DNA of 64,000 nt from a virus. This document shows positions 4,809 to 17,171 of the stretch, in pieces; the stretch's first letter is position 1, and every line of letters starts with the position of its first letter. The stretch lies in IMG/VR virus record IMGVR_UViG_3300035183_000841, positions 1 to 64,000 of that record. One strand, written 5' to 3'. The notes beneath the pieces were generated by a model that saw nothing but the letters and a program-made list of their open reading frames with translations, did not search any database and was not told the origin of the DNA. A program made the translations under genes and the position numbers.

Positions 4809-4833
4809 TACCGCCAAGTGGGGAGGGGGTGCA

Positions 4834-5019: not shown

Positions 5020-5266
5020 GATGGACAGATTCATCACTGCTATCCTTCACGAGATCGCCGAGACGAGCAGTGAGGACACCCCAAGCGGGCGCAGCATCAA
5101 GGCTTTCGACCTAGCAGTGTCGAAGGATGAGGAGGCGCTCGACCTGTGGAGGCAGGAACTCAGGTCGGCTGCCGCTCAGGCGGCGCGTCGGTGGACGAAT
5201 CGTAGTCGCTATCGCGCCTACAAGGAGCAGAGGGACCGAGCTCGACTTGAGGGGGAGAGACAGTGA
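5012..5266 (+). CDS. Hypothetical protein
   Basis: An 84-residue helical protein, acidic at the N-terminus and strongly basic at the end (ARRWTNRSRYRAYKEQRDRAR). ATG 5012 follows GGAGGAGGG and overlaps the preceding gene. The following gene starts in a 4-base GTGA overlap, so the three genes 4834-5469 are translationally coupled. Confidence 0.7.
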   Translation: MSEMDRFITAILHEIAETSSEDTPSGRSIKAFDLAVSKDEEALDLWRQELRSAAAQAARRWTNRSRYRAYKEQRDRARLEGERQ

Positions 5267-5469
5267 AGTCTTATGATGTCCTCGGCTATACCTTCCCAGG
5301 GTATGCCGTATGCCTCGACTGTCATCTCAAGGTGGAGCATGAGTGCGGCGTTGAAGATTCTTGCTACCCCATCTTCGCCGACTCAGAGTGGGATTACATC
5401 CCCGCTTGTGACATCTGCGGGGAAGCCATAGAGGGAGTGAGAATCACGGAGGAGTTTCGCTCGCTCTAA
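5263..5469 (+). CDS. Small double-CxxC protein
   Basis: A 68-residue protein started by GTG in a GTGA overlap. CLDCH near the N-terminus and CDICG near the C-terminus form a treble-clef or ribbon-like zinc site. Function unknown. Confidence 0.65.
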   Translation: MKSYDVLGYTFPGYAVCLDCHLKVEHECGVEDSCYPIFADSEWDYIPACDICGEAIEGVRITEEFRSL

Positions 5470-5526
5470 AAGAGCGGCGAGAAGAGAGTCGGAATCTGAA
5501 GCGGAAAAGTGACTAGAGGAGGTTAG

Positions 5527-5793
5527 GTGCTACTCCCGATCGACAACTACGATACAATGGTAAACACCCACGAAGTGGCGGCTTGCGGTTTGGCGTACGA
5601 CAAGGACATCCCTAAGGAGGCCCAGAAGCAGGCTGCGGAGAACTTAGAGCCGTTCAAGCGCTGGTACATCTGGGTCACTCTGAAGAGTGGCCACAACATC
5701 ACTGGAATGAGTCTCGGTTATGGACCAGGAGCGAAGAAGTTGGGGAAGGAGATGCTACACAGCCTCGCCAACGCTATCGCAGGAGGTGACTAG
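5527..5793 (+). CDS. Hypothetical protein
   Basis: An 88-residue protein with a GAGGAGGTTAG site before GTG. The first half is acidic, the second carries WYIWVTLKSGHNITGMSLGYGPG, a beta-hairpin-like segment. No family recognised. Confidence 0.7.
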   Translation: MLLPIDNYDTMVNTHEVAACGLAYDKDIPKEAQKQAAENLEPFKRWYIWVTLKSGHNITGMSLGYGPGAKKLGKEMLHSLANAIAGGD

Positions 5794-5795
5794 AG

Positions 5796-5864
5796 ATGGC
5801 ATCACCAGGAGACCGAGCACTCTTGCGCGAAGCGTGCGATAAGTCTCCATGGACGGTGAGGTGA
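5796..5864 (+). CDS. Putative 22-residue peptide
   Basis: ATG preceded by a good GGAGGTGACTAG site within the end of the preceding gene, reading 22 codons to TGA. The following gene starts one base later. It may be a genuine micropeptide or simply a ribosome-loading leader for the next gene. Confidence 0.35.
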   Translation: MASPGDRALLREACDKSPWTVR

Positions 5865-5865
5865 G

Positions 5866-6042
5866 ATGTTCTTCAAGCGCCACTATGAGTTCATCGCAGA
5901 GGTTCTGAGTCGTATCCAGCCGCCTTCGGTGAGGCTTCAGGTGGCATCGGAGTTCGCGAAGGCGTTCAAGGAAGACAACCGTAACTTCGATACGGCAAAG
6001 TTCATCGCCGCAGTTAGGCGGCAGAGGGGAGGCGACAGGTGA
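5866..6042 (+). CDS. Small conserved phage protein (58 aa)
   Basis: A 58-residue protein beginning MFFKRHYEFIAEVLSRI and containing EFAKAFKEDNRNFDTAKFIAAV split across its second half. This layout (KRxHYExIAxVL ... FAxxFxxDNxxFDxxxFxxA) is a very widespread small phage protein of unknown role. It overlaps the next gene by four bases (GTGA). Confidence 0.75.
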   Translation: MFFKRHYEFIAEVLSRIQPPSVRLQVASEFAKAFKEDNRNFDTAKFIAAVRRQRGGDR

Positions 6043-6320
6043 AGTTCATCAAGATCGAGAACAAGGTTTACGGACTGTTGCCGGTCGAGATGTTGTTCCG
6101 AGCAACTGATATCATCAGTAGGAACGAGGAAGTGGCCGCGAAGGACGAGATGGGCCAGTCCGATTGGTCGGATTGGGAGGAACTCGACACGGCCTACTCC
6201 GAGTTCGTCCACGACCTCGTTGACCACTTCTTCTCCGACGGGACAGACACCATCGCCAAGATCGAGTCGATCGCTGGAAGTTGGGATCCGGGAGTTGACA
6301 TCGATGTTTCTGACATCTGA
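6039..6320 (+). CDS. Hypothetical acidic protein
   Basis: A 93-residue acidic protein starting at GTG in a GTGA overlap. It contains SDWSDWEELDTAYSEFVHDL and a helical acidic core. No family recognised. Confidence 0.7.
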   Translation: MKFIKIENKVYGLLPVEMLFRATDIISRNEEVAAKDEMGQSDWSDWEELDTAYSEFVHDLVDHFFSDGTDTIAKIESIAGSWDPGVDIDVSDI

Positions 6321-6399
6321 GTTATCTGGTACAATCATCTTGAGCATCGCATTCTTAGTGTATCTGTTGATCGATAAATGGCTAGATAGGAGGAGTTAG
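6304..6399 (+). CDS. Small membrane peptide (31 aa)
   Basis: An ATG inside the end of the preceding gene opens a 31-codon frame with one hydrophobic span (GTIILSIAFLVYLLI) and a basic end (KWLDRRS), that is, a single-pass membrane peptide. A second such peptide follows at once. GGGAG lies 9 bases upstream of the ATG. Confidence 0.5.
   Translation: MFLTSELSGTIILSIAFLVYLLIDKWLDRRS
6307..6335 (+). promoter_or_regulatory. Possible extended -10 promoter
   Basis: CTGGTACAAT at 6326-6335 matches the TGG-TAnnAT core shared by the other promoters in the window. The -35 (TTTCTG at a 17-base spacer) is poor. It lies inside a small gene. Confidence 0.3.
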
Positions 6400-6519
6400 A
6401 TGTTATTCGGAGTTCAGACTGAGATCCTTATCGCGGCAGGCGCACTCGCGCTCATGATCCTCTACATCCTTGCCGGGGAGTTCAGGTTCTGGCGGCAGAA
6501 GCGGAACTTCTGGAGGTGA
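6400..6519 (+). CDS. Small membrane protein (39 aa)
   Basis: ATG follows AGGAGGAGTTAG. One transmembrane segment (ILIAAGALALMILYILA) is followed by an aromatic basic tail (FRFWRQKRNFW). It is adjacent to the 31-residue membrane peptide. Such pairs can be membrane-acting lysis or exclusion peptides, but the function is not known. Confidence 0.6.
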   Translation: MLFGVQTEILIAAGALALMILYILAGEFRFWRQKRNFWR

Positions 6520-6521
6520 AG

Positions 6522-6662
6522 ATGGGAAAGCCACTGAAGAAGGCACAGGAACGACTCGAGCGGAGGATCCACGGCGGAGACGGAACCCATCGCGCTGGTA
6601 AGTGCGGGTGCGACTTGTGGTTGAAGAAGGGATACCGCAAGCCGGGCTCGATGAAGAAGTGA
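6522..6662 (+). CDS. Small basic CxC protein, paralogue of 13276-13416
   Basis: A 46-residue protein sharing HGGDG, CGC, W.K.GYRKPGS and a final KK with the 46-residue protein at 13276. It is very basic and may bind nucleic acid. The pair lies at either side of the GAGT/ACTC-rich island, just before the first and before the last TATAAAGTC elements. Confidence 0.7.
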   Translation: MGKPLKKAQERLERRIHGGDGTHRAGKCGCDLWLKKGYRKPGSMKK

Positions 6663-6691
6663 CTAAATCCTGGGACTAAAATTCGGCCCCG

Positions 6692-6707
6692 TATAAGGTC
6701 CGACTCC
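6692..6707 (+). repeat. TATAAGGTC element (diverged first copy)
   Basis: TATAAGGTCCGACTCC, a variant of the TATAAAGTCCCGACTC element found at 13505, 13562, 14153 and 15508. It is preceded by two CTAAA elements (6663-6682) and is followed by a perfect 8-bp hairpin, GGCAGAGT (6746-6753) with ACTCTGCC (6758-6765). Confidence 0.55.
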
Positions 6708-6810
6708 GAAAAGGTAGTTAAAGTCCACTAGACTCTCTCGGGGGGGGCAGAGTCGGCACTCTGCCGGCGGGCACTCTCGAACAGGTGTTCGGATGAGTGG
6801 GGAAATAGTA

Positions 6811-6840
6811 TTGTCAACTCTGATCCCGAGATGGTATCAT
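6811..6840 (+). promoter_or_regulatory. Sigma70-like promoter
   Basis: TTGTCA (6811-6816), an 18-base spacer ending in TGG, and TATCAT (6835-6840). The predicted start at about 6847 coincides with the first base of an 8-bp hairpin. It lies in the 550-base gap 6663-7215. Confidence 0.7.
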
Positions 6841-6846
6841 ATGTGT

Positions 6847-6945
6847 AGGATCGACAGAGAGTTCGATCCTAGAGTGAACCTTGAAAGTTGCATAGAGGGG
6901 GAGGCGACTCCGGAGTCGGGACCGAGATGGCCCGAGGAGTCGCCT
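6847..6945 (+). ncRNA. Structured leader or small RNA
   Basis: Starting at the predicted +1 of the 6811 promoter, AGGATCGA (6847-6854) pairs with TCGATCCT (6863-6870), and AGGCGACTCC (6902-6911) pairs with GGAGTCGCCT (6936-6945). No good coding frame starts before 7216. The RNA could be a leader of the 7216 gene or an independent RNA. Confidence 0.35.
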
Positions 6946-7215
6946 GGCTAACAGGCCAACGGAGATCCACTCATGCCATGGGGGCACGGAGTGCGAAACG
7001 GGGACCGGACACTCTCCCGGTTCCACTCACCTCGTATCCACTCCTCGGCGGTCGAGCGGAAGTGACAAGGGGAAGAGTCCGCCACCGTCGCCCATCGGAC
7101 CTCTGAGTCGATCCCCTCGACGAGAGTCGAGACGACACCGCAGCCTGGCCGAGCCCCGAAGAAGTCCTCACTAAAGACTCCGAGTGAGCAAACACGGAGT
7201 CGGAAGGAGTCGGGG

Positions 7216-7848
7216 ATGGACATGACGTTCGTCTGTCAGAAAGCACTCCACCAGGAGTGCTCCGGGAACATCCTGGAGCGGACCCGACGTGGAGTGCGCA
7301 GGCACCGGTGCGAGTGCCGGTGCCACGACGGAGTCGCCGGCGCCGGAGTGGCCAAGCCCAAGCGGGCCACCGCTCCGAAGGGCGAGCGGTGCGCACTCTG
7401 CGGCGCCGTCGGCGACCTCGTGAAGTCGGTCGGCGAAGAGTGGATCTGCGCCGACCGATGCAGCGGCAGCGTGGCATTCACTCAGCGGACCAAGAAGTGC
7501 CCTGAGTGCAACGGGGTGATGTGGCGACTCACCCCGCCAGAGGAGGAGGACGAGGACGAGGGAGTGTGGGTCTGCTCCAGCCGAGCCCACACTCCGATCC
7601 CGGAAAAGAGTCGGCTGACCATCCGCAACGGGGTCATCCGGCTCACTTTCCCCGACGGGAGAGTCTACGAGCAGACCGTCGGGAAGACCAGGAAGAGTCG
7701 CAAGAAGAAGAAGCCGGCGAAGCGGGTCCACACTCACAAATGGGTGTTCGACCCGGAAGAGTCGGTCATGCGCTGCGCTTCCTGCCGGAAGCGTGGCGAG
7801 AAGAAGCAACTCCGCCGGGCGCCGCGACGCCGGCGGCAGACACTCTGA
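7216..7848 (+). CDS. Multi-zinc-ribbon protein
   Basis: A 210-residue protein with several Cys clusters: C-E-C-R-C-H near residues 33-37, CALCG near 60, CPECN near 95 and CASCRK near 193. Basic stretches (KTRKSRKKKKPAKR and the C-terminal RRAPRRRR) suggest nucleic-acid binding. A central acidic run PPEEEDEDEG separates the fingers. Its stop codon lies within the stem of the following hairpin. Function unknown. Confidence 0.7.
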   Translation: MDMTFVCQKALHQECSGNILERTRRGVRRHRCECRCHDGVAGAGVAKPKRATAPKGERCALCGAVGDLVKSVGEEWICADRCSGSVAFTQRTKKCPECNGVMWRLTPPEEEDEDEGVWVCSSRAHTPIPEKSRLTIRNGVIRLTFPDGRVYEQTVGKTRKSRKKKKPAKRVHTHKWVFDPEESVMRCASCRKRGEKKQLRRAPRRRRQTL

Positions 7849-7868
7849 CTCTACTAAAGATCAGAGTG
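7841..7868 (+). terminator. Hairpin with CTAAAGA loop spanning the stop codon
   Basis: CACTCTGA (7841-7848) pairs perfectly with TCAGAGTG (7861-7868). The 12-base loop contains ACTAAAGA. The TGA stop of the preceding gene is in the left arm. The 9344 hairpin has the same architecture with another sequence. Confidence 0.6.
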
Positions 7869-7917
7869 GAAAAAGGGCCGAGTCGGCAAGGGAGTGAGAG
7901 TGAGGACAGGAGGGACC

Positions 7918-8190
7918 ATGCAGACGTTCGACGAACTCTACGAGCAAGCCTACAACATCGCAGTCATCGGCGCGTCGAACCCGATCGGCGTTGCCGGCAC
8001 TCTGCACGAAGCCATGTTGTTCCTGAGTCGGAAGGGGTTCGACCACTCCGACATCAGGAACTCAACACCCATCCGGGCCATCGCGGCCCAATTGAACTTC
8101 CTCCTCGGGCAGGGACTCGGTCCCGAGGAGTCGGATCTCGGGCTCCTCATGACGTGGCGAGAGGAGCTCAGTCGGAAGGCGGAGGAGTAA
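7918..8190 (+). CDS. Hypothetical protein
   Basis: A 90-residue helical protein; ATG 7918 follows GGAGGGACC. It has no Cys and no recognised domain. An upstream in-frame GTG (7894) lacks its own site. Confidence 0.65.
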   Translation: MQTFDELYEQAYNIAVIGASNPIGVAGTLHEAMLFLSRKGFDHSDIRNSTPIRAIAAQLNFLLGQGLGPEESDLGLLMTWREELSRKAEE

Positions 8191-8207
8191 GGAAGGAGGG
8201 AGTCACG

Positions 8208-8462
8208 ATGGCCTGGAAGACACTCAAGACCATCTCTGCCATCCGTCAGGGGGAGTCGGGGGGGTTCCTCCCTGGGGGGGACTCTATCAACATCTCACTC
8301 GTCGAGGTGCGAGGCAAGCGACTCATCGACGTGCGAGTGTTCGGAGGGAGGGGCTACAATGGCCCCACCAAGGCCGGCTTCGCACTCGACGAGGCGTCAC
8401 TCAGCGCCCTCATCACGGCACTCACCGCCGCGAAGAAGGCGCTGAAGGACAAGAAGAAGTAG
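8208..8462 (+). CDS. PC4-like single-stranded nucleic-acid binding protein
   Basis: An 84-residue protein whose core INISLVEVRGKRLIDVRVF, then PTKAGFALDEASLSALITAL, matches the PC4/YdbC pattern: strand, RGKR..DIR strand, a PTKxGxxL turn and a C-terminal helix. PC4-fold proteins bind single-stranded DNA or RNA as dimers and influence transcription or replication. The start follows GGAAGGAGGGAG. The assignment rests on pattern only; a fold search would decide. Confidence 0.55.
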   Translation: MAWKTLKTISAIRQGESGGFLPGGDSINISLVEVRGKRLIDVRVFGGRGYNGPTKAGFALDEASLSALITALTAAKKALKDKKK

Positions 8463-8473
8463 AATCCACTCTT

Positions 8474-8547
8474 GAGTGGGGTGAGGCGCTGTGGGGGTGG
8501 AGTCACCTTAGGCGCCGGGACCACGTATCCACGGCCTCACCCCACTC
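8474..8547 (+). terminator. Long-range 14-bp stem after the PC4-like gene
   Basis: GAGTGGGGTGAGGC (8474-8487) pairs perfectly with GCCTCACCCCACTC (8534-8547); the 46-base interior contains GGCGC pairs. It is followed at once by CCCCGCTAAAGATGGCGGGG, a second small hairpin with the CTAAA element in its loop. Confidence 0.6.
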
Positions 8548-8602
8548 TCAACCCCCGCTAAAGATGGCGGGGCAAGAGAGTCGGACTCGGGAAGGAGTGA
8601 GA

Positions 8603-8758
8603 GTGAAGGTCTTCTGGTGGGTGCTTGAGGGCCCTAACGGGGAGTTGCTCCCCGGCAAGGAGGGCGGGCTGCTGGACTCCTTCGGCACGCGGGTGGCGGG
8701 GCCGTACCCGACTCTCCGCGAGGCCAAGGCGGCAATCAACTCGATCCTGAACCGCTGA
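8603..8758 (+). CDS. Hypothetical small protein (51 aa)
   Basis: GTG 8603 follows GGGAAGGAG. The peptide begins MKVFWWVLEGPNGELLPG and reads as a compact alpha/beta unit ending PTLREAKAAINSIL, like short WxxxGxxG plus helix proteins common in phages. Function unknown. Confidence 0.6.
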   Translation: MKVFWWVLEGPNGELLPGKEGGLLDSFGTRVAGPYPTLREAKAAINSILNR

Positions 8759-8769
8759 AGGGAAGCGAG

Positions 8770-8958
8770 ATGAATTGCTCACTCTGCGGGCAGATGATGT
8801 GGGACAACTCCATGTGCCCGCGTTGCGACTTCGCGCCGGAGCCGGAGTCCCCTCAGAGGTCGCCGTACTGCTCACTCTGTGGGGCTCTGATGGACGGAGC
8901 AGGAGAGTTCCTGTTCTGTCCGAACTGCGACCCTGAGTATGTGAAGGGAGGTGACTAG
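8770..8958 (+). CDS. Double zinc-ribbon protein
   Basis: A 62-residue protein made of two CxxC...CxxC ribbons (CSLCG...CPRCD and CSLCG...CPNCD), an internal duplication. Double zinc ribbons often bind nucleic acid or proteins. The ATG lies 11 bases after the preceding stop. Confidence 0.7.
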   Translation: MNCSLCGQMMWDNSMCPRCDFAPEPESPQRSPYCSLCGALMDGAGEFLFCPNCDPEYVKGGD

Positions 8959-9108
8959 ATGACCACCATCGGGTGGCCACTCCGGGAAGTCGAGATCCCG
9001 GATGAGTTCCAATTCGACCTGCCGGTCCTCGAGCCCGTCGAGGAGCCGGCGACTCTGCCGGTGGAGGAGCCGGCGACTCTGCCGGTCGAGGAGCCGGCAC
9101 TCGTCTAG
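8959..9108 (+). CDS. Pro/Glu repeat protein (49 aa)
   Basis: ATG follows GGAGGTGACTAG. After 20 residues the protein consists of about three copies of LPVEEPAT, encoded by a near-perfect 24-base tandem repeat at about 9025-9105. It is acidic and probably disordered; copy number could vary by slippage. Function unknown. Confidence 0.6.
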   Translation: MTTIGWPLREVEIPDEFQFDLPVLEPVEEPATLPVEEPATLPVEEPALV

Positions 9109-9153
9109 GTTCACTCTCCCTTCGGGGAAACACGATTCAGAAAGGAGTCGGAA

Positions 9154-9333
9154 ATGTTCATCGTCAACGTCCCCATGACACTCGGCGGGAAGCGTGTCTC
9201 GCGGCGACTCGCCGAGCAGGCCGCAGTCGAGCACGTCAAGCGGGAGAAGCGAGTGCTCACTCGGGTCGTCGGGGTCGTCCCGTCGGCCCAGAGTGGGACG
9301 TTCCAGGTCGTCTTGCAGAAGGTCCGACTCTGA
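9154..9333 (+). CDS. Hypothetical small basic protein (59 aa)
   Basis: ATG follows AAAGGAGTCGGAA. Basic helical middle (RRLAEQAAVEHVKREKR) and beta end (GTFQVVLQKVRL). A small UUCG-type hairpin (about 9117-9128) precedes it. Function unknown. Confidence 0.6.
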   Translation: MFIVNVPMTLGGKRVSRRLAEQAAVEHVKREKRVLTRVVGVVPSAQSGTFQVVLQKVRL

Positions 9334-9343
9334 ATTCGGGTTT

Positions 9344-9389
9344 GTCGGCACTCCACCCCCGCTAAATCCCCGTCCGCCGGAGTGCCGAC
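9344..9389 (+). terminator. 11-bp hairpin with GCTAAATC loop
   Basis: GTCGGCACTCC (9344-9354) pairs perfectly with GGAGTGCCGAC (9379-9389); the 24-base loop carries GCTAAATC. The same element type occurs at 7841 and near 8556 and 10541. Confidence 0.65.
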
Positions 9390-9467
9390 TCGCGGAGAGT
9401 CGGAGTGCGCCGCCGCCACCCCCGAGCGCGCTCCGACTCTCCGCCTTCCCCCAGGAAAGGAGGAGTG

Positions 9468-9743
9468 ATGAACCTGCCCCCAGGCGTGGGAGTGTTCGAC
9501 ATCCCCGGTAACCGACCCGAGGATGAGGTTTGGGAACTCTTCATCGAAGAGTTCTACAAGCGCTTCAAGGAGCAGTATCCCTCATCCTTCAAGAGGATGG
9601 AGTCGCTCCTCGACGACGACGAGTTCTTCGACGCGCTGGGCGACGCACTCATCATCGCCTACGAGATGGGCGAGAGTGCCGGCTTCTCGAGTGGCCGGCT
9701 CGAGGCAGAGTTGGATCGGTACTACGAGGAGGTGGAAGAGTGA
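9468..9743 (+). CDS. Hypothetical acidic protein
   Basis: A 91-residue acidic helical protein starting at ATG after AAAGGAGGAGTG. It is rich in Glu/Asp and aromatic residues (ELFIEEFYKRFKEQYPSSF). It overlaps the next gene by a GTGA. No family recognised. Confidence 0.65.
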   Translation: MNLPPGVGVFDIPGNRPEDEVWELFIEEFYKRFKEQYPSSFKRMESLLDDDEFFDALGDALIIAYEMGESAGFSSGRLEAELDRYYEEVEE

Positions 9744-9955
9744 AGGTAATCCTGACCACCGAGTCCGGCGAGCAGCTCATCCTCATCGAGCGACTCGCCC
9801 CGGAGGATTTCGAGTCGCCGGCGTCGGAGTGGCTGATGGCCCAGCTCCGAGAGGCGATCGCACTCCGGAAGTCGGTGGATGAGCAGTTCGACCGTCTGAA
9901 CGAGACCTTGTTCGACCGGGAACTCTCCTTCCCGGTCGAGGATTTCGAACTCTGA
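9740..9955 (+). CDS. Hypothetical protein
   Basis: A 71-residue protein started at GTG in a GTGA overlap. MKVILTTESGEQLILIERL reads as two short strands, followed by a helix. Function unknown. Confidence 0.65.
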   Translation: MKVILTTESGEQLILIERLAPEDFESPASEWLMAQLREAIALRKSVDEQFDRLNETLFDRELSFPVEDFEL

Positions 9956-9969
9956 GAAAGGAGGTGACT

Positions 9970-10062
9970 ATGAGAACGCGACTCGGTGAGTTCATCATCA
10001 TCTGGTCGCTCGTGACCGCACTCTTCTGCGAGTGGGTCATCGCTCTCCGTATCGTCCGGTAA
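9970..10062 (+). CDS. Single-pass membrane peptide (30 aa)
   Basis: Strong AAAGGAGGTGACT site before ATG. The peptide is one hydrophobic span (FIIIWSLVTALFCEWVIAL) flanked by Arg at both ends. Function unknown. Confidence 0.55.
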   Translation: MRTRLGEFIIIWSLVTALFCEWVIALRIVR

Positions 10063-10086
10063 GAGCCCGAAAGGAGGGAGTTGCTT

Positions 10087-10500
10087 ATGGCAAAGTCGAG
10101 CACGAAGAAGTCGCAGCCGAAGAAGTCGCAGCCGAAGAAGTCGCAGCCGGCCAAGCCCAAGACCAAGGAGTCGCCGAAGAAGGAGTCGCCGGCCCGGAAG
10201 AGGAGTCCCCGTGGCCAGGGCGACGTGAGCCGTATCGACTCCGTCGTCACGGCTGTCCTCGAGGGGCGACTCGGGAGCGCCAGGGACGGCGTGAAGGCGG
10301 AGTTGCAGCTCAACGGCACTCCCAGGAGTGCCTGGTGGAACTGGCTCTGGTACCACCGTCAGCGCCAGACTCCGACCTACGCCGCGATGATTTACCGAGG
10401 GATGCCACTCGTGGAGGAGAGTGGCAAGGTCTTCCTCATCTGGAGTGGCGAGCAGGTCGCCGAGATGAGGAAGGCGTACAAGGCAGCGAAGAAGTCGTAA
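10087..10500 (+). CDS. Basic protein with KKSQP tandem-repeat tail
   Basis: A 137-residue protein. The first about 45 residues are a Lys/Ser/Pro tail with three KKSQP repeats, encoded by a 15-base tandem repeat near 10105-10150, resembling histone H1-like tails. The remainder contains GTPRSAWWNWLWYHRQRQTP and VFLIWSGEQVAEM. Such a layout suggests DNA binding or compaction. ATG 10087 is spaced well after GGAGGGAG; TTG 10081 is less likely. Confidence 0.65.
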   Translation: MAKSSTKKSQPKKSQPKKSQPAKPKTKESPKKESPARKRSPRGQGDVSRIDSVVTAVLEGRLGSARDGVKAELQLNGTPRSAWWNWLWYHRQRQTPTYAAMIYRGMPLVEESGKVFLIWSGEQVAEMRKAYKAAKKS

Positions 10501-10508
10501 CTCCATCC

Positions 10509-10540
10509 GTGGGGGAGTCGGGGCAACCCGACTCCCCCAC
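10509..10540 (+). terminator. 14-bp GCAA-tetraloop hairpin
   Basis: GTGGGGGAGTCGGG (10509-10522), loop GCAA, CCCGACTCCCCCAC (10527-10540): a perfect and very stable stem just after the preceding stop, followed by CCGCTAAAGG. A second hairpin with arms TCCGACTC and GAGTCGGA sits right before the next ribosome site. Confidence 0.75.
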
Positions 10541-10599
10541 CCGCTAAAGGAACCGGTCGGCAGAGTCCGACTCGCGGAGAGTCGGAAAGGAGCATTCGG

Positions 10600-11817
10600 A
10601 TGTACCGCTCTGTGAATCAGGAATATGAAGTCTACATCGCGGAGTCCGACGGCGACAATCGCCGGCGACTCGGCGACAAGCAGGTGTGGTGGTTACTGAC
10701 TCTCCTCAATCGCGAGGACGAGGACAGCTGGCTGTCACTTCCGGCATACCGGCCACTCATGAACGCCATCGCGGATCACAACTCCATGAGGGCGACCGGG
10801 TGCCGACCGGGGTGCCCACTCCCAGCGACGCACGTCGTCGTGCGCCGGCGCTGCGAGTGCCGGAAGGGCGACGTGCTGTTCCGACTCGTCCACGAGTCGG
10901 AGCTCAAGATGTCCCATCGACTCGTGGAAGAAATCGTGGACGGAGTCCGCGAAGCCTTCGAGGGGGGCGGGGCGGTCCTCATCACGAACTCCACGACATC
11001 GTACTACCCCGGCATCAGGAGTGTCGGCCGCGATGTCGATCCTCTGGAGATCGAAGTCGGGAAGCGGGCGGCGGAAGCGGTGAGGTACCCACTCTGGGTG
11101 TCCATCGCGAGGAACCTGCGTCGCGCTAGGGAGACCGGTCAGGCACTCCTCATGGAGAACCTCAGCGGCGGCGAAGTGTTGGATTACGTCACTCACAACG
11201 CCGCCTTCTGCGAGGGAGTGCCCGAGGAGGCCGACCGGCGGCTCGACCCGCAGGAGCACGAAGTCGCCGTCTTCGGAGTGCACGGCTGGTCCGTCTTCGA
11301 CACTCTGAACCCGACGCTCCGCATCGCGGTCTGGCTCTCGGAGTCGGCCACCTGGGCGAAGCAGGCGGCGGAAGGAAACTCCATCATCGGGCTCCGCTTC
11401 TGGAGTCTCGATTACGACGGGCCGGTCACTCTGAGGGGCTCGTTCGGAGCGGCTTGGACGAGTCCGCGTCTCACGGCGACGTGCGACAAGCTGCACTCCG
11501 CTCCGGACAGTGAGCACACCTGCGGCATCTACGCCATCCTCCGGGACGGGGTGCAGCCCGAACTCTCCTCGGCGGGTTTCTGGCGGTACGGGACTCCGAC
11601 GTTCGGACTCGTCTCCTGCTCCGGCAAGGTCATCGTCCACGAGCGGGGAGTCCGTAGCCGGCACGCCACGTGCCGACTCCTCATCGTGTCGGACGAGGAC
11701 AAGCGGCAACTCATCCTCGCCAACCTGCCGGCATGGCGGGAGACCCGAGTCCTCACCTACGACGAGGCACTTCGGGCCATCGAGGCGGGGCTGCCGGCGT
11801 CGGAACTCATGAAGTGA
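10600..11817 (+). CDS. Protein with actinobacterial CGIYA/GKV domain (405 aa)
   Basis: The C-terminal third contains GLRFWSLDYD, a SPRL segment, HTCGIYA, then GLVSCSGKVIVHERGVRSRHA. The - strand gene at 16470 carries the same series (GVRLWSVDAN, SRC, ARCGFYA, GVITLHGKVFEHTYGYRAE), so both share a domain of a type I know from actinobacterial proteins of unknown function. The first 270 residues include a Cys-rich stretch (CRPGCPL, CECRKGD) and helical parts with no recognised fold. The start follows AAAGGAGC. Confidence 0.65.
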   Translation: MYRSVNQEYEVYIAESDGDNRRRLGDKQVWWLLTLLNREDEDSWLSLPAYRPLMNAIADHNSMRATGCRPGCPLPATHVVVRRRCECRKGDVLFRLVHESELKMSHRLVEEIVDGVREAFEGGGAVLITNSTTSYYPGIRSVGRDVDPLEIEVGKRAAEAVRYPLWVSIARNLRRARETGQALLMENLSGGEVLDYVTHNAAFCEGVPEEADRRLDPQEHEVAVFGVHGWSVFDTLNPTLRIAVWLSESATWAKQAAEGNSIIGLRFWSLDYDGPVTLRGSFGAAWTSPRLTATCDKLHSAPDSEHTCGIYAILRDGVQPELSSAGFWRYGTPTFGLVSCSGKVIVHERGVRSRHATCRLLIVSDEDKRQLILANLPAWRETRVLTYDEALRAIEAGLPASELMK

Positions 11818-11847
11818 GGAAGGGGCGCGGATGAATGTTCCTTCCTC
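11816..11847 (+). terminator. Hairpin at the stop of the 405-residue gene
   Basis: GAGGAAGG (11816-11823) pairs with CCTTCCTC (11840-11847); the left arm overlaps the TGA. The gap 11818-11914 holds nothing else convincing; a short ATG frame here has only six codons. Confidence 0.45.
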
Positions 11848-11914
11848 CTGAAGAACCCATACTCCAGTACCTAGAGTGTCGGTATCCAGAAGTCCGAAAG
11901 GGGGCGCTGAAAAG

Positions 11915-12181
11915 ATGTTCCAAGATCGTATCAAAACACTCTCCTGCGGATGCAACTACGACACCCTCACAGGAGCCTGTACCGCACAGTGCCGGTACCA
12001 CCGCATCTCCGAGGCGGTGAGACTCTTGAACGAGGTGCTCCGGGAGATGGACGAGGAGGCGGGAGAGTCTGCGGCTGAAGAGTTGGATCTTCCAGAGTAC
12101 GACGACATCTGTGACGAGTGCGGACACCCGCATCTCGAGGGCACCCCATGCCCCATCTGCCACATGGACTCGGACTTCTGA
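11915..12181 (+). CDS. Cys-rich small protein (88 aa)
   Basis: N-terminal SCGCNYDTLTGACTAQCRYH contains four Cys and a His, and the C-terminus has CDECGHPH and CPICHM, so two metal sites are likely. An acidic helix lies between. ATG 11915 follows GAAAGGGGG. Function unknown. Confidence 0.6.
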   Translation: MFQDRIKTLSCGCNYDTLTGACTAQCRYHRISEAVRLLNEVLREMDEEAGESAAEELDLPEYDDICDECGHPHLEGTPCPICHMDSDF

Positions 12182-12435
12182 GTCGGAGCATCTAGGGGGA
12201 CTCCCGGATATCGACCCGGAACGGACTCTAGGAAGGGGGGGACGGAGGGCCTAACCCCACTCTACCGCCCAGACTCACTAAACCTAACTCCCTACGAGTG
12301 TGAAAACCATTAGCCCCACTCTTGAGGCTAACGAGTGAACATCCGCCCTGAGCCATCCCGCCCGGAGCCGGCGGCCACTCAAACCGGGCGACTCTGAGTG
12401 CCGACTCCGCAGGGGCGCGACTCAAAGGAGGAATC
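12182..12435. other. Intergenic stretch with hairpins
   Basis: No supported gene. It contains CACTAAACC at about 12275, TTAGCC/GGCTAA arms of a 6-bp hairpin near 12310-12335, and many ACTC/GAGT words, ending in AAAGGAGGAATC before the next ATG. Confidence 0.5.
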
Positions 12436-12669
12436 ATGCCTGTCAATCGGTACCACATCACCTTCGAGTTCGAGGTCACCATCCCGGCCAACCGACTCCG
12501 CGACCTCGCCGACTTCGGCGAAGACCCGGAGACTCGGTTCCTGGAGGAGTTGGAGGAGTACCTGACCATCCGCGACTTCGAGAAGGTCGTGGAGTCGTAC
12601 CTCCAGGACTACGTGGCCTACGACATCAAGGTTGGGGGAGGTGGAGTGAAGAAGATCAAGAAGATGTGA
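12436..12669 (+). CDS. Hypothetical protein
   Basis: A 77-residue protein starting with MPVNRYHITFEFEVTIPANR, a beta strand pair, followed by an acidic helix and a Gly/Lys-rich end. Excellent AAAGGAGGAATC site. Function unknown. Confidence 0.65.
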   Translation: MPVNRYHITFEFEVTIPANRLRDLADFGEDPETRFLEELEEYLTIRDFEKVVESYLQDYVAYDIKVGGGGVKKIKKM

Positions 12670-12732
12670 CTTCGTACCCTTGCCGGCATTGTCACTCTGA
12701 ACACGTCCCTGCTACAAGAAAGGAGACTCGAC

Positions 12733-12930
12733 ATGGGAGTGTACAACCCCGACGGCTCCTGGGAGCCACTCGCCCCTGAGGAGAAGTTCATATTCCGCCC
12801 ACTCTCGCCTGAGGAGGTTCTCGAGTTCCGCAAGTACGCACTCGAGAACGATCCGCCGGCCGACACTCCGGTCAGCATCCTGCATCCCGTCTGCGTGGAC
12901 ATCTGGAGGATGCGGGGAGTGCTGAAGTAG
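12733..12930 (+). CDS. Hypothetical protein
   Basis: A 65-residue protein; ATG after AAAGGAG. Contains PLAPEEKFIFRPLSPEEV and one Cys. Function unknown. Confidence 0.6.
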   Translation: MGVYNPDGSWEPLAPEEKFIFRPLSPEEVLEFRKYALENDPPADTPVSILHPVCVDIWRMRGVLK

Positions 12931-12953
12931 AACTCTCAAACCCTGAAGTTGAG

Positions 12954-13079
12954 ATGAAGGTCATCCTCCAGCCGTCCTTCAGACTCATCAAGAAGGAGTC
13001 CAGGAAGGAGGCAGTCAAGAAGGCGCACAGAGAGTTCCGCCGGCAGATCCGGGCGGAGAAGACCCTGAAGTTCCGGTAG
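12954..13079 (+). CDS. Very basic small protein (41 aa)
   Basis: A 41-codon frame, over one third Lys/Arg (IKKESRKEAVKKAHREFRRQ). The ribosome site is weak, so the start is uncertain. It could bind nucleic acid. Confidence 0.45.
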   Translation: MKVILQPSFRLIKKESRKEAVKKAHREFRRQIRAEKTLKFR

Positions 13080-13275
13080 CCCACTGCGAGTGACGTTGCC
13101 GGCCGGGGGGAGTCGGGCCGCGTGAGTCGCCGGCCGGCTCCCCCCCTGGGCGGGCCGTGTGAGGTCGCCGCCGGCTCCCGCTCGGTCGCCCCCCGGTCGG
13201 CCGCTCGCAGTCGGGCACTCACAGTGGCGCACTCAAGAGTCGGACTCGTAGAGTCCGACTCCGGGAAGGAGTGAC
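13080..13275. other. GC-rich intergenic stretch ending in a hairpin
   Basis: No gene seen. CGCCGGCCGGC-type repeats fill 13095-13170. An 11-bp hairpin, GAGTCGGACTC (13237-13247), loop GTA, GAGTCCGACTC (13251-13261), sits directly before the GGGAAGGAG ribosome site of the next gene. Confidence 0.55.
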
Positions 13276-13416
13276 ATGGCAAAGGCACAGCGTAAGGCAC
13301 TGAAGAAGTTGGCTATCCGGGTCCACGGTGGGGACGGACTCCACCGAGAGTCCGGGTGCGGCTGCGCAGTCTGGGCGAAGCAGGGCTACCGCAAGCCCGG
13401 CAGCCTCAAGAAGTGA
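13276..13416 (+). CDS. Small basic CxC protein, paralogue of 6522-6662
   Basis: A 46-residue protein of exactly the same length as that at 6522, sharing HGGDG, HR, CGC, and GYRKPGS.KK. Very basic. Preceded by the 13237 hairpin and followed by a strong terminator. The duplication within one phage suggests a useful, possibly DNA- or RNA-binding role. Confidence 0.7.
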   Translation: MAKAQRKALKKLAIRVHGGDGLHRESGCGCAVWAKQGYRKPGSLKK

Positions 13417-13428
13417 ACGACCCTGACT

Positions 13429-13461
13429 CTGGGGCCCGACTCGGTCGCGGTCGGGCCCCAG
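13429..13461 (+). terminator. 12-bp GC-rich hairpin
   Basis: CTGGGGCCCGAC (13429-13440) pairs with GTCGGGCCCCAG (13450-13461) across a 9-base loop, 12 bases after the stop of the 46-residue gene. Confidence 0.7.
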
Positions 13462-13504
13462 GGTCGCGCTCCAGACTCTGAGTCCCCCACTCAAAGTCGG
13501 GACG

Positions 13505-13706
13505 TATAAAGTCCCGACTCTGGCCGGCTGCGCCGGCGACTCCACACTCAAAGTCGCCTCGTATAAAGTCCGACTCCAAAGGGCACTTCGAAGTCGCGAC
13601 TCTGAGGCGGCGACTCTCTGGACGGCGGCGCTTCAAGATCAGAACCTCACTTCGAAGTGAGATCCACCTCACTTCTTGGAGTCCTTCACTATAAGGGCCA
13701 ACTCCA
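13505..13706 (+). repeat. TATAAAGTC element cluster
   Basis: TATAAAGTCCCGACTC at 13505-13520, TATAAAGTCCGACTCC at 13562-13577, and a diverged TATAAGGGCC at 13690. Each is preceded by CACTC/CACT or CGTC and followed by a GACTC word. The stretch 13417-13794 has no supported gene. The copies resemble binding sites for a sequence-specific protein rather than sigma70 promoters, because no -35 is conserved. Confidence 0.6.
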
Positions 13707-13794
13707 GAGTGGCCGACTCTGCTGGAGTCGGACTCCGAAGAGTCAACTGCCCCACTGGACCAGTCCTAGTTGGAGTCTACCGAGTCACTGGTGG

Positions 13795-13824
13795 TTGTCG
13801 GATCCGTGACGTAGGTGGTACAAT
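13795..13824 (+). promoter_or_regulatory. Sigma70-like promoter (repeat A)
   Basis: TTGTCG, 18 bases, TACAAT, with TGG before the -10. The 30 bases are almost identical to the promoter at 15648 (TTGTCGGATCC.TGACGTAG), so the two are duplicates. It precedes the 53-residue gene at 13870. Confidence 0.75.
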
Positions 13825-13869
13825 CCCGTCACGATGGACGGTAGGCACGGGAGGAAGGGGGTGAGTCGC

Positions 13870-14031
13870 ATGGTCTACGTCATCGTGCCGGCAGCATCCG
13901 AGACGGCGGAGTCGGTCACTCTGACGGCGGCGCTGCTCTGGGCGGCCAGCCGCGTCCTCGAGGGGCACTCCATCCGGATCCACACTCCGGACGAGGGGGT
14001 CGTGGAGTTCCTCGAGGAGGACGAGGAGTAA
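13870..14031 (+). CDS. Hypothetical small protein (53 aa)
   Basis: Begins MVYVIVPAASETAESVTL and ends in acidic residues (EFLEEDEE). ATG 13870 sits 9 bases after AAGGGGG. It has its own promoter and terminator and so is a single-gene transcription unit. Function unknown. Confidence 0.65.
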   Translation: MVYVIVPAASETAESVTLTAALLWAASRVLEGHSIRIHTPDEGVVEFLEEDEE

Positions 14032-14047
14032 GCGACTCCACGGAGAG

Positions 14048-14079
14048 GGGCCGGCGACTCTGTCGCCGGCCCTTTCTCT
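14048..14079 (+). terminator. Rho-independent terminator
   Basis: GGGCCGGCGAC (14048-14058), loop TCT, GTCGCCGGCCC (14062-14072), then TTTCTCT. Textbook form, ending the 13870 gene. Confidence 0.85.
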
Positions 14080-14138
14080 GTGCCCTCGTGGATCGGCACT
14101 CTCACTCTGGCAGAAGTCGGCCACTCACAGTCGCGCAC

Positions 14139-14190
14139 TATAAAGTCCGCGCTATAAAGTCCCGACTCTGCAGGATTTCCCCACTATAAG
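14139..14190 (+). repeat. TATAAAGTC elements, convergent region
   Basis: TATAAAGTCC at 14139, TATAAAGTCCCGACTC at 14153-14168 and TATAAGTGCCC at 14185. The whole 14080-14395 stretch between convergent genes has no supported coding frame and is dense in ACTC/GAGT words. Confidence 0.55.
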
Positions 14191-14395
14191 TGCCCACTCA
14201 AGAGTGGCCGACTCTGCTACCGACCCAGAGGGAGTCGCACTCCAGAGTCGGCCACTCCCACTCTGGTGTCAGAGTCAGCACTTTCTTGCGCCGGCCGGTG
14301 GCCGACTCAGATCTGGGCGACTCCGAGTGCCCACTCTGGGCGACGCACTCTGAGTGCCGCACTCGGAAGTCGGCACTGCCGAGTGGGCAAAAGAG

Positions 14396-14425
14396 AAGGC
14401 CGGCCCCTGAGTCGGGACCGGCCTT
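14396..14425 (-). terminator. Terminator for the - strand genes
   Basis: AAGGCCGG (14396-14403) pairs with CCGGCCTT (14418-14425), with a GTCGGGA/CCCC interior that extends pairing. Seven bases beyond the stop of the 14433 gene when read on the - strand. Confidence 0.7.
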
Positions 14426-14432
14426 CCTCCCC

Positions 14433-14633
14433 CTACTTCTCGATGCCGACCCACCACACAGTGTGGTGGTCGATCACTTCGGCCACGTGAGTGGCCTCGG
14501 GGTCGATGCAGTAGCACCGACTCCCGTCGATGTCCTGGAGGCACGACCACGTGCCCCAGGACGCCGCGAGTCCCGCTTCCCAGATGGACTCCTCGGCTTC
14601 GTCGTGGTTCGTGAATCGGTAGGTGTTCTTCAT
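14433..14633 (-). CDS. Hypothetical small protein (66 aa)
   Basis: Starts MKNTYRFTNHDEAEESIWEA after GGGAGGAGTGAG. Two Cys (C31, and C41 in RCYCID) and a His-rich HVAEVIDHHTVWW end. Function unknown. Confidence 0.65.
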   Translation of the reverse strand: MKNTYRFTNHDEAEESIWEAGLAASWGTWSCLQDIDGSRCYCIDPEATHVAEVIDHHTVWWVGIEK

Positions 14634-14644
14634 CTCACTCCTCC

Positions 14645-14944
14645 CTACTTCGCGTCCGCGATCCGGGCGCGGAGTTCCTTGACGAGCGCCCTCACGCTCG
14701 TCGGATCGAACTCCACCTCGAGGAGTCCGTCCGATGCCTCCCGCTCCTTCCAGCGCCGGACCGCACTCAGGTCCTCCAGATCGTCCTTGTTCGGCCACCG
14801 GAGGATGATGCATCCGTCGGTCTCGAGTCCGTACCCCATACGGAGCATCATGGCGGCGAACATCGCCGCCGTCTTGGAGTCGGCCTCCTCGACCACGTGG
14901 TCCGTGCCGGCCACGGACGGGAAGGCGAGGACAAGATCCTCCAT
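14645..14944 (-). CDS. Hypothetical protein
   Basis: A 99-residue protein; ATG 14944 lies 6 bases after GGAGGTGA. Helical, with AAMFAAMMLRMGYGLETDGCIILRW split by a loop. First gene of a short - strand operon with 14433-14633. Function unknown. Confidence 0.65.
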   Translation of the reverse strand: MEDLVLAFPSVAGTDHVVEEADSKTAAMFAAMMLRMGYGLETDGCIILRWPNKDDLEDLSAVRRWKEREASDGLLEVEFDPTSVRALVKELRARIADAK

Positions 14945-15015
14945 TCTCACTCACCTCCTTCCTCCTACTCGAACCTTCCGCTAGGCTCCCTCCCGCCGGA
15001 TCTCACTCTAGGGGC

Positions 15016-15234
15016 TTATCGGTCCACGTAGGCTCGCCGCACGTCCACCACCATGCGTGCGGCTCCTGCGGTGCCTTCCGACTCCAGGCACGCTTCGCAG
15101 ATCTGGTTGAGTCCGATCATCCCCTCGTGCGCCCATGCGCAGGATTGCAGGTGGCCGCACTCCAGCTCGACGGCCAGCGCCCAGAAGAGTCGCCGGCGGT
15201 TCCTCACGTGCTCGGGAATCCTCAGAGTCCGCAT
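15016..15234 (-). CDS. Small CxxC protein (72 aa)
   Basis: ATG 15234 after GGAGGAGG. Contains ECGHLQSCAWAHEG and CEAC, a plausible zinc site of the type found in many actinobacteriophage small proteins (ECGH near a later CxxC). Function unknown. Confidence 0.65.
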   Translation of the reverse strand: MRTLRIPEHVRNRRRLFWALAVELECGHLQSCAWAHEGMIGLNQICEACLESEGTAGAARMVVDVRRAYVDR

Positions 15235-15493
15235 GATTCCTCCTCCCTCGGCGGGAGGGAGTCTGGCGGAGGGCTCAAGTAGAGTCTCTATGATGTTCTC
15301 AAGGTACCGTACTACCGTGCCGTATCGTACCGCGATTGCTCGAGCCTAGCAAGTATCGTCTTGACGCAACACCGAACGTATGTTCGAGCCTCAGGATCGG
15401 ACGGGTTCCAGACTCCAAGCCCGGCGGCGGGTGAGTGAGGAAAGGGCGCGGCATGATCTTCACTCATGAGTCGAAGTACCTTCCCGACTCTAC

Positions 15494-15524
15494 TATAAGT
15501 CCCGTCGTATAAAGTCCCGACTCC
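15494..15524 (+). repeat. Last TATAAAGTC elements
   Basis: TATAAGTCCCG at 15494 and TATAAAGTCCCGACTCC at 15508-15524. The stretch 15235-15560 has no gene I can support and marks the right border of the GAGT/ACTC-rich island. Confidence 0.55.
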
Positions 15525-15563
15525 ATTGGAGTCGCACTCTGCCGGAATGTTTGGCCTCGGGGT

Positions 15564-15608
15564 CAACGTTGGGTCGGGAGCTCAACGTTGAGCTCGGCGC
15601 TCAAGGTT
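15564..15608. promoter_or_regulatory. Palindromic operator-like array, copy 1
   Basis: Three half-sites spaced about 19-20 bases: CAACGTTG at 15564, CAACGTTG in the 18-base palindrome GAGCTCAACGTTGAGCTC (15579-15596), and CTCAAGGTT ending at 15608. The 25 bases 15584-15608 recur with three changes at 16318-16342. Two further direct repeats, GGATCGTCGTGGGGG, follow at 15611-15625 and 15633-15647, just before the promoter. Confidence 0.65.
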
Positions 15609-15647
15609 TCGGATCGTCGTGGGGGCGCGCCCGGATCGTCGTGGGGG

Positions 15648-15677
15648 TTGTCGGATCCATGACGTAGATGGTACAAG
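15648..15677 (+). promoter_or_regulatory. Sigma70-like promoter (repeat A copy)
   Basis: TTGTCG, 18 bases, TACAAG. Nearly identical to the promoter at 13795. It points at the 15686-15737 hairpin, so its product would be a very short hairpin RNA or a transcript antisense to the 15761 gene. Confidence 0.6.
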
Positions 15678-15685
15678 GCGCGCCC

Positions 15686-15737
15686 GGCCACATAGCAAGC
15701 GCCCCGGCCACGTGGCCGGGGCGCTGATGCTATGGCC
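15686..15737. terminator. Cruciform with 28-base perfect palindrome
   Basis: The bases 15698-15725 are a perfect palindrome (AGCGCCCCGGCCAC plus its complement). Outer arms GGCCACATAGC (15686-15696) and GCTATGGCC (15729-15737) extend it. It would terminate both the - strand gene ending at 15761 and the + promoter at 15648. Confidence 0.75.
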
Positions 15738-15760
15738 GAACGGGCGCTCTATCCCTATCC

Positions 15761-16219
15761 CTACTTGTTCGCCTTGAGGGCGCGCTTGTGCTCGGCCACG
15801 GCCTCACGGATGAGGGCGCGGTCGGCCACGATGTAGCAACGCCCGTTGGCCTCGATGATGGGCGCCCGCAGCATGAGCACCCATCCGATGCGCTGGTACA
15901 GGTCGGCGCTGTGCGCCGAGCCCTCCGGCCTCAATCGGTTTGTGATGAGGCAATTGAACACCTTCCCGATTGAGGGACCGTGGCCGCCTTCCGGGCGCAG
16001 CGGGAGGTCGGCTTCGATGCGCACGGCCACGTTGTCCGTGCGCTCCTCCGAGGCCGCGCTGTAGCCACGCGGCCACAAGATAGCGCCCCACAGCGCCCGC
16101 GAGGGCGCGTGAGCGCCCGAGGCCGCGGCCTCGGCCGCGGCCTCAAGCGCGGCCACGATGGCCGCTGTAGCGTTGCTCGGGCGCGAGGCCGCCCGAGCGC
16201 GCGCGTTGCGCTTACTCAT
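15761..16219 (-). CDS. Ala-rich hypothetical protein in a GGCCAC/GGGCGC-rich segment
   Basis: A 152-residue protein starting MSKRNARARAASRP after GAGAGGAG. An Ala-rich helix (residues 25-45) precedes an alpha/beta part with VRIEADLPLRPEGGHGPSIGKVFNCLITNRLRP across 75-110. No family recognised. DNA of this gene is loaded with GGCC, GGCCAC and GGGCGC words and nearly lacks the GAGT/ACTC words of the adjoining island. It is flanked by the two operator copies, so it may be an autoregulated regulator or a transferred cassette. Confidence 0.7.
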   Translation of the reverse strand: MSKRNARARAASRPSNATAAIVAALEAAAEAAASGAHAPSRALWGAILWPRGYSAASEERTDNVAVRIEADLPLRPEGGHGPSIGKVFNCLITNRLRPEGSAHSADLYQRIGWVLMLRAPIIEANGRCYIVADRALIREAVAEHKRALKANK

Positions 16220-16259
16220 GATGGCTCCTCTCTGCGCCCGTTCGACCATAGCACCGTGG

Positions 16260-16288
16260 ACGATACCATCTTCGGGCGCGCCCGTCAA
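16260..16288 (-). promoter_or_regulatory. Sigma70-like promoter, - strand
   Basis: On the - strand: TTGACG, 17 bases ending in TGG, TATCGT. Predicted start near 16253, 34 bases before ATG 16219. Confidence 0.7.
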
Positions 16289-16317
16289 CATCTTACTCTA
16301 CCATAAGACTGGGGCTT

Positions 16318-16469: not shown

Positions 16470-17171
16470 TCATGAGACATCCAGGATGTGGAACCTCACT
16501 CCGGGGTACGCGGAGATGTCGATGTTACCCGTCGCGACCGAAGGGATGAACACCTCACGTACCTTCGCGTACTCCGCTCGGTACCCGTAGGTATGCTCGA
16601 AAACCTTGCCGTGCAAGGTGATCACGCCGATGGCGTGGAGCCCTCCCCTCGGAAGCCCGTTAACCGCACCGGGTTTCCAGGCGTAGAACCCGCACCGGGC
16701 ATGGCGGGCGCACCCGGAGGAGAGCCGCATACCTCCGGACTTCATGAACGCCATGGGGTTCACGCACCGCGATGGGCCGACCTCCTCTTCCCAGGAGAAA
16801 TCCACCACCCAGGAGCGCAACCTCCGATCCTGGTTGGCATCGACCGACCAGAGCCTAACGCCGACGAGTCCTTGGTCGGCCCAGTCCCTCGCCGCGTTGA
16901 TCGCCCCAGCGACCATGAGCGTGGTGAACTGGCACTCATGCCCCCGATGGCCCGTCGTCGAACGGTCGAGGAACGAACAGTTGCAGACGTTCACCCCTTC
17001 GGCGTACCGGGCATCGCCGACCCATCCGATGTCGTACCCCTCTTCCCTGCGGTCGATGATGAGCCCTACGTGCATCCGGTGGAGCCGTTGGAGCGCCACG
17101 GTTATCGCCTCGGTGGTGAGCATCGCTCCGTGGCTCGAATAGTAGACGACCGGCACGGCGTTAGACCTCAT
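16470..17171 (-). CDS. Protein with CGFYA/GKV domain, paralogue of 10600 gene
   Basis: A 233-residue protein. Conserved landmarks: GVRLWSVDAN, SRC, ARCGFYAW, GVITLHGKVFEHTYGYRAEYAKV. The same order is present in the C-terminal third of the + strand gene at 10600. I recognise this series from actinobacterial proteins of unknown function. Its ATG overlaps the end of the upstream DUF1599-like gene by 11 bases, so the two are coupled. Confidence 0.65.
   Translation of the reverse strand: MRSNAVPVVYYSSHGAMLTTEAITVALQRLHRMHVGLIIDRREEGYDIGWVGDARYAEGVNVCNCSFLDRSTTGHRGHECQFTTLMVAGAINAARDWADQGLVGVRLWSVDANQDRRLRSWVVDFSWEEEVGPSRCVNPMAFMKSGGMRLSSGCARHARCGFYAWKPGAVNGLPRGGLHAIGVITLHGKVFEHTYGYRAEYAKVREVFIPSVATGNIDISAYPGVRFHILDVS

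Follow-up and report, generated by a model that had tools for sequence, protein, structure and literature searches.

What kind of signal can fill a stretch of phage DNA so densely that the word GAGT, or its complement ACTC, recurs about once every 28 bases? This question is raised by positions 6663–15530 (hereafter, the island) of a 64,000-base DNA window from an uncultured phage, which comprises bases 1–64,000 of the 84,709-base IMG/VR record IMGVR_UViG_3300035183_000841, a fragment without ends. A first-pass annotation of the window had attributed this saturation to a selected DNA-level signal—such as recombination, uptake, modification, or nucleoprotein binding. The analysis presented here favors, with a probability of roughly 0.6, the reading that selection has built up an array of some 300 sites (core GAGT, element approximately RGAGTSSS, in either orientation) at which a sequence-specific DNA-binding protein would dock.

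The GAGT saturation is real, and stronger than first stated. The island holds 311 words, compared to 60.6 expected at order 0, 110.8 under an order-1 Markov model, and about 64 at the density of the remaining record (approximately 7/kb), so that about one third of the word copies of the record fall in about one tenth of its length. The 12 copies originally counted in the 360 bp between 7201 and 7560 are exact (eight GAGT and four ACTC). Maximum-likelihood boundaries for a single segment were placed at 6181–15540, with 34.6 words/kb inside and 7.7/kb outside; the right edge is sharp, in agreement with the end near 15.5 kb proposed earlier, and the left side tapers through a weak shoulder. In terms of local tetramer enrichment, GAGT is by far the strongest in the record (log-likelihood ratio 182), followed by AGTC (73), which largely overlaps it. 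Longer forms are also enriched, including GAGTC (140 vs. 12.5 expected), GAGTG (127 vs. 14.2), and GAGTCGG (48 vs. 1.3), and the base preferences around the words indicate that the effective element extends beyond GAGT to approximately RGAGTSSS. The palindrome GCCGGC is enriched as well (36 sites vs. about 1.3 expected), and 11 of these 36 sites lie at +5 of a GAGT start, where 1.3 are expected per offset.

The similar enrichment of GAGTC and GAGTG bears on modification or restriction, in which GAGTC (MlyI/PleI-type) or GANTC would be methylated by a phage or host enzyme. The phage does encode D12-type adenine and C5-type methyltransferases (Table 1). However, the abundance of GAGTG departs from a MlyI/PleI-type specificity, 124 of the 129 GANTC sites in 7001–15000 are GASTC, with GAWTC (about five) not enriched as a CcrM/HinfI-type specificity would require, and the spacing rule described below is not predicted by methylation, which is left with a very slim chance of being the explanation. 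A recombination or uptake signal (Chi-like or DUS/USS-like) would likewise consist of dense short words recognised in either strand. Nevertheless, Chi and uptake words are spread genome-wide (Chi words being polar as well), whereas those of the island are concentrated (35/kb, as opposed to about 7/kb elsewhere), their orientation is balanced (146 GAGT and 165 ACTC), and hard-core spacing would be unexpected, making this the least credible of the explanations considered. Uptake sequences, Chi sites, and start-associated repeats, which had been named as precedents, thus misfit the island by distribution, polarity, position, and orientation.

The words are not accounted for by codon usage. Every codon phase is used, in line with the frame independence originally described, and the density is higher in noncoding (46/kb) than in coding DNA (29/kb). 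The coding part contains 167 words, compared to 78.8 ± 5.4 after shuffling the codons of the island among synonymous positions, and to 56.7 ± 5.8 under the codon usage of the structural genes, an excess of about 16–19 standard deviations. Neither of the two outcomes that the first-pass annotation would have taken as a refutation was observed, as the enrichment survives a codon-matched null and the density is not the same across the genome.

A further property of the island is the spacing of its words, which was compared to order 3–5 Markov models trained on the island (200 simulations each), in which the observed values were never reached. Words on the same strand are rarely found 7–12 bp apart, measured start to start (5 pairs vs. 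33 expected; null minimum 15), and accumulate at 13–15 bp (37 vs. 16; null maximum 30). Convergent pairs (GAGT...ACTC) are depleted at 10–21 bp (10 vs. 33; null minimum 18), with none at 10–14 bp, and are frequent at 7–9 bp and 22 bp, whereas 37 divergent pairs (ACTC...GAGT) occur at 10–21 bp, the gap being absent from 5 bp on. Coding DNA keeps the empty zone too, with a single pair at 7–12 bp. Among the 24 commonest 4-mers, gap and contact peak appear together only in AGTC, AGTG, and AGAG, all of which share bases with GAGT or with the context in which it usually occurs. The possibility of a strict 14-bp period was also considered and rejected; its periodogram is within random placement (observed 5.2; null maximum 5.7), and the claim is therefore restricted to a hard-core gap followed by a contact peak. 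The word frequency inside the empty zone is close to the genome background, so active avoidance is not required, and the zone seems to reflect a lost benefit, where a second word brings no gain. This steric spacing is that of protein-binding site arrays, and is what would be seen if each site had a one-sided footprint of some 13–14 bp, lying mainly 3' of GAGT.

Further evidence comes from the sole close sibling found, IMGVR_UViG_3300010938_000039 (62.8 kb), which is collinear with the record at 84–96% identity and carries the same saturated island at 15.4–22.4 kb, with a similar word density. The same spacing is observed there (6 vs. 23 at 7–12 bp, 21 vs. 11 at 13–15 bp, and 5 vs. 23 for convergent pairs). 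Although no other large block has diverged as far between both genomes (90% identity, 75% alignable), within the island GAGT is the best conserved tetramer, with 186 of about 215 aligned copies kept (86.7% vs. a mean of 70.1% for all tetramers, z 5.3), and is unexceptional elsewhere (86.5 vs. 84.0 in structural genes and 84.9 vs. 79.5 in the left flank). Fourfold-degenerate sites are 89.2% identical inside the 8-bp element (189/212) and 79.0% outside (388/491; p 0.0012), and noncoding bases are 93.2% and 89.3% identical, respectively (p 0.004). Lineage-specific segments, i.e., window DNA absent from the sibling, are saturated too (22–51 words/kb). A tendency for losses in one sibling to lie near gains in the other (11 vs. 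6.5, p 0.04) is weak and was not used. Taken together, codon nulls and conservation reveal selection at the sequence level that is independent of the reading frame, as in binding arrays.

An alternative with no function at all, in which local mutational or copying bias and the spread of short imperfect repeats would have enriched GAGT, is unlikely, even though several observations point in its direction. Among 310 sites, 52 have flanks with at least 14 matches in 20 positions, compared to about 9 in column shuffles, imperfect repeat families of 24–48 nt are present, and the GC content and codon usage of the island differ from the rest. On the contrary, about 83% of the sites have flanks inside the shuffled range, the words are more conserved than other tetramers rather than less, alternative alleles are spread over many tetramers with no directional mutation, and the 7–12 bp gap in coding DNA would not arise by copying.

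The earlier proposal is partly supported. Its selected DNA-level signal is backed by codon nulls, conservation, presence in coding and noncoding DNA on both strands, and spacing. Among the mechanisms then listed, recombination, uptake, and modification found no support, and nucleoprotein binding is the only one that would explain the spacing rule, the binding itself being deduced from the arrangement of the words. In this binding-site array, one protein would bind each word, covering about 13–14 bp, mostly 3' of GAGT. Point changes under selection would create new words, whether in a gene or between genes, unless a neighbor blocks the new site, and the outcome of this blocking would be the contact peak at 13–15 bp, the empty zone at 7–12 bp, and the free back-to-back (divergent) pairs. 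Binding over 9 kb would produce a nucleoprotein domain on the early-gene region, acting as a coat or organiser.

Several points weigh against the binding-site array. For the binding protein there is at most a speculative candidate, encoded at 10087–10500, which rests on a predicted fold topology for which fold searches returned no significant structural match. Some word contexts recur within longer imperfect repeats. The conservation analysis compares just two related genomes; its per-base gain is modest (approximately 0.90–0.94 in the word vs. 0.88 in the flanks), and at fourfold sites the GAGT core does not reach significance by itself (p 0.14). The 186 words common to both genomes make the spacing of the sibling non-independent evidence, and a few Markov simulations do reach its 13–15 bp peak taken alone. 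Finally, the terminal repeat of the phage Yaboi, discussed below, lacks a comparable dominant word.

Regarding the protein itself, the product of 10087–10500 is a speculative candidate for word binding, since the predicted order of its domain would be compatible with a winged helix. Fold searches on two DNA-binding candidates gave nothing significant, and searches of Pfam and PHROG yielded no convincing family for any of the small genes of the island that were searched.

The window phage is related to Stanwilliamsviridae, a family of Streptomyces phages, at a distance that leaves its membership of the family or of any of its genera tentative. This placement is based on its portal, protease, capsid, tape measure, ribonucleotide reductase (RNR), and glycosyltransferase genes; the portal is 42–48% identical at the amino acid (aa) level to those of many members, including Yaboi and Gilson, and portal, capsid, RNR, glycosyltransferase, and tape measure genes follow the order of this family. 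The remaining genes of the record include a primase, a DNA polymerase, UvsX, a Cas4-like nuclease, RuvC, two methyltransferases, and a terminase. When GTDB genomes were scanned for its portal protein, the search retrieved only distant relatives (41–42%) in metagenome bins, and no host was obtained.

The island is located upstream of the glycosyltransferase–RNR–portal block, among about 20 small genes. In Yaboi, 6.0 kb separate the end of the left direct terminal repeat (12,432 bp, GC 0.557 vs. 0.472) from the glycosyltransferase gene that follows, and terminal repeats of about 11 kb have been reported for BE1 phages (PMC5764925). Since the GC-rich island (0.63) similarly ends 5.5 kb before the homologous glycosyltransferase gene, it may be, or overlap, a long direct terminal repeat of this phage. 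A coat at such a position might shield the DNA ends or keep them organised, or else regulate early transcription. A more ambitious version, put forward only tentatively, is that of a "packing code", in which about 9 kb of coding and noncoding DNA would have evolved to hold the maximal number of non-overlapping sites for one abundant phage protein that coats the early or terminal region.

As far as the searches show, the GAGT island is confined to a small phage group. No island-carrying contigs beyond the sibling were found in scans with the products of 10600–11817, 10087–10500, and 7216–7848, the glycosyltransferase (both as a single sequence and in the form of an alignment of its family), and the major capsid protein. 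The island region is absent from a near-identical contig (L007, a 3.1 kb stretch), and the relative G002 (capsid identity 56%) shows no GAGT excess across 28 kb, from which the restriction to a small group is drawn within the searches made. GAGT saturation is also absent from the stretches examined in 53 contigs matching GAGTCGGAAAGGAG. Two short contigs matching TATAAAGTCCCGACTC were discarded as chance matches; their gene content looks RNA-phage-like. In a screen of about 130 other loci for word saturation, no further long tetramer-saturated island was detected, the strongest other case being a GTGACA cluster in Yaboi. As for the sibling, the end of its contig (61001–62782) has a GC content of about 0.70, far from the phage average, which might be due to an error of assembly or to DNA of foreign origin.

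Table 1. Positions of the features discussed, numbered along the window unless referred to the record.
Feature	Position	Strand	Description
Left shoulder	1–6662	+ (genes)	15 words/kb, 1.28x order-1 expectation; words not unusually conserved
GAGT/ACTC-saturated island	6663–15530	both	146 GAGT and 165 ACTC; ~35 words/kb; GC ~0.63
210-aa cysteine-rich protein, basic tail	7216–7848	+	inside the island; without Pfam or PHROG match
Example, GAGTCGCCGGCGCCGGAGT	7331–7349	+	two GAGT 15 bp apart, GCCGGC at +5
137-aa protein	10087–10500	+	K/SP-rich basic tail and predicted H-E-H-H-E-E-H domain; 94% identical in sibling
405-aa gene	10600–11817	+	C-terminal part resembles the 16470–17171 (-) product by eye
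46-aa gene	13276–13416	+	inside the island, 2 words; paralogue of 6516–6662 (59% aa identity)
Noncoding, word-saturated	13417–13834		RNA folding stronger than the words account for, z -5 to -8
Window-specific segment	13581–14367		unaligned to sibling; 40 words, 51/kb
Noncoding, word-saturated	14032–14432		mostly missing in sibling; strong inverted repeats, z -7 to -12
Tandem tiling example	14323–14367	-	same-strand GAGT at 14364, 14350, 14336, and 14323 (spacings 14, 14, 13)
C5-type methyltransferase	59002–59643 of record		
D12-type adenine methyltransferase	78786–79712 of record		

Two noncoding segments of the island (13417–13834 and 14032–14432) fold far beyond shuffles in which the words were held fixed, and could represent structured RNA or terminator clusters. 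In addition, elements of the CTAAA/TATAA type (CACTAAAG, CACTATAAG, and CGTATAAAGTCCCGACTC) occur in its noncoding DNA, on the + strand only and often upstream of genes, and might be phage promoters. These features would fit an RNA-level or promoter signal, with the words being parts of hairpins, terminators, or phage promoters (such as the CACTAAAG/CACTATAAG elements). However, this folding excess is absent from other saturated noncoding segments (12182–12435, 15235–15530, and 6664–7215), and the words are equally present on both strands and also inside genes. Promoters for a T7-like RNA polymerase, suggested by these motifs, were rejected as a candidate, as such a polymerase was not found in the record by a search whose positive control failed. 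Altogether, a signal of this kind is very improbable. No Rfam family was detected in the island.

With regard to the neighboring genes, the 48-aa basic product of 6516–6662, encoded just outside the island, has no GAGT words in its gene, whereas two are present in that of its basic 46-aa paralogue inside. The likeness between the products of 10600–11817 and 16470–17171, the latter outside the island, was not recovered by BLASTP at E 1e-3. Of all words in the left flank (1–6662), GATC is conserved least between siblings, in particular as GGATC (33% vs. 75% for 5-mers), in a record that encodes a D12-type adenine methyltransferase. Downstream of the island, a 760-bp region (15551–16310) holds 19 GGGCGC/GCGCCC words (55 in the record) and many GGCC around a 176-aa minus-strand open reading frame, and is missing at that place in the sibling. 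Lastly, the RNR (22079–24841) and DnaB (59953–62229) genes show split family matches with unrelated middles, suggesting the presence of inteins.

If a protein does bind the words, a site every 28 bp would be overlaid on about 20 genes whose coding remains intact, an extreme case of overlapping codes and a natural system for studying how far selection can write binding positions into coding DNA, which could also reveal a new way by which phages coat, protect, or switch a DNA region. The packing code, if true, would amount to a chromatin domain made by a virus and specified by sequence, different from known stoperators, iterons, and silencers. Furthermore, the spacing statistic uses nothing but sequence, and any genome can be screened with it for hidden binding-site arrays and for the size of their footprint.

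Among known systems, the stoperators of cluster A mycobacteriophages (L5/Bxb1) are also asymmetric short sites located in and between actinophage genes. Those of the L5 type are bound by one repressor (PMC6550527, PMC9283540), as a single protein would bind the island. Stoperators, however, have longer sequences, occur at a far lower density, and mostly point in the direction of transcription (PMC6550527), whereas the island packs about 300 sites with a 4–8 bp core, on both strands and tiled at about 14 bp, into one 9-kb block. A stoperator-like function of the array, with a phage repressor blocking transcription through the island, is quite unlikely; asymmetric short sites over an actinophage early region would suit it, but the orientation is balanced (146 vs. 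165) in a mostly + transcribed island, and neither a repressor nor an integrase was identified among the proteins searched.

The start-associated SAS of cluster K mycobacteriophages, a 13-bp sequence (GGGATAGGAGCCC) found at gene starts and mostly in one orientation (PMC3203893), and the ESAS are likewise words often repeated in the early region of actinophages, and many genes of the island have GAGTCGG-like words beside the ribosome site, as in SAS/ESAS. In contrast to SAS, the words of the island are found throughout genes and the DNA between them, in both orientations, 167 of them lying in coding DNA.

Closer to the window phage, the GTGACA array of Yaboi gp35 belongs to the same broad family and shares an asymmetric short word, the use of both strands, and an intragenic location. 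It is dense (26 words in approximately 430 bp) and lies just before the structural genes. However, it is confined to one gene tail, uses another word, and has a minimum spacing of about 6–9 bp without the 13–15 bp peak. The array lies in the gene for the DUF2637 membrane protein of Stanwilliamsviridae (L005 14182–14598 in Yaboi; also loci L147–L152), whose low-complexity tail holds 13–26 GTGACA/TGTCAC words on both strands. In the homologue of the satellite phage MiniFlayer, about 16 TGCGAA words are found instead, and the whole looks like a lineage-specific intragenic binding-site array. A DUF2637 hidden Markov model (HMM) gave no matches in the window record or the sibling, both incomplete.

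Iteron arrays, parS clusters, and the sites of xenogeneic silencers are, as proposed for the island, cis arrays that nucleate large protein–DNA complexes. Iteron and parS arrays consist of longer sites and occupy tens to hundreds of bp, and known silencers prefer AT-rich DNA. The island differs from silencer targets in being GC-rich (0.63), and an Lsr2 HMM had no matches in the record or the sibling, both incomplete, as opposed to what Lsr2-type silencing would predict. In a limited search of open-access papers, no description was found of arrays this dense and long, crossing genes on both strands with a readable footprint rule. Binding-site arrays are already known in phages; what is new in the island is the spacing rule.

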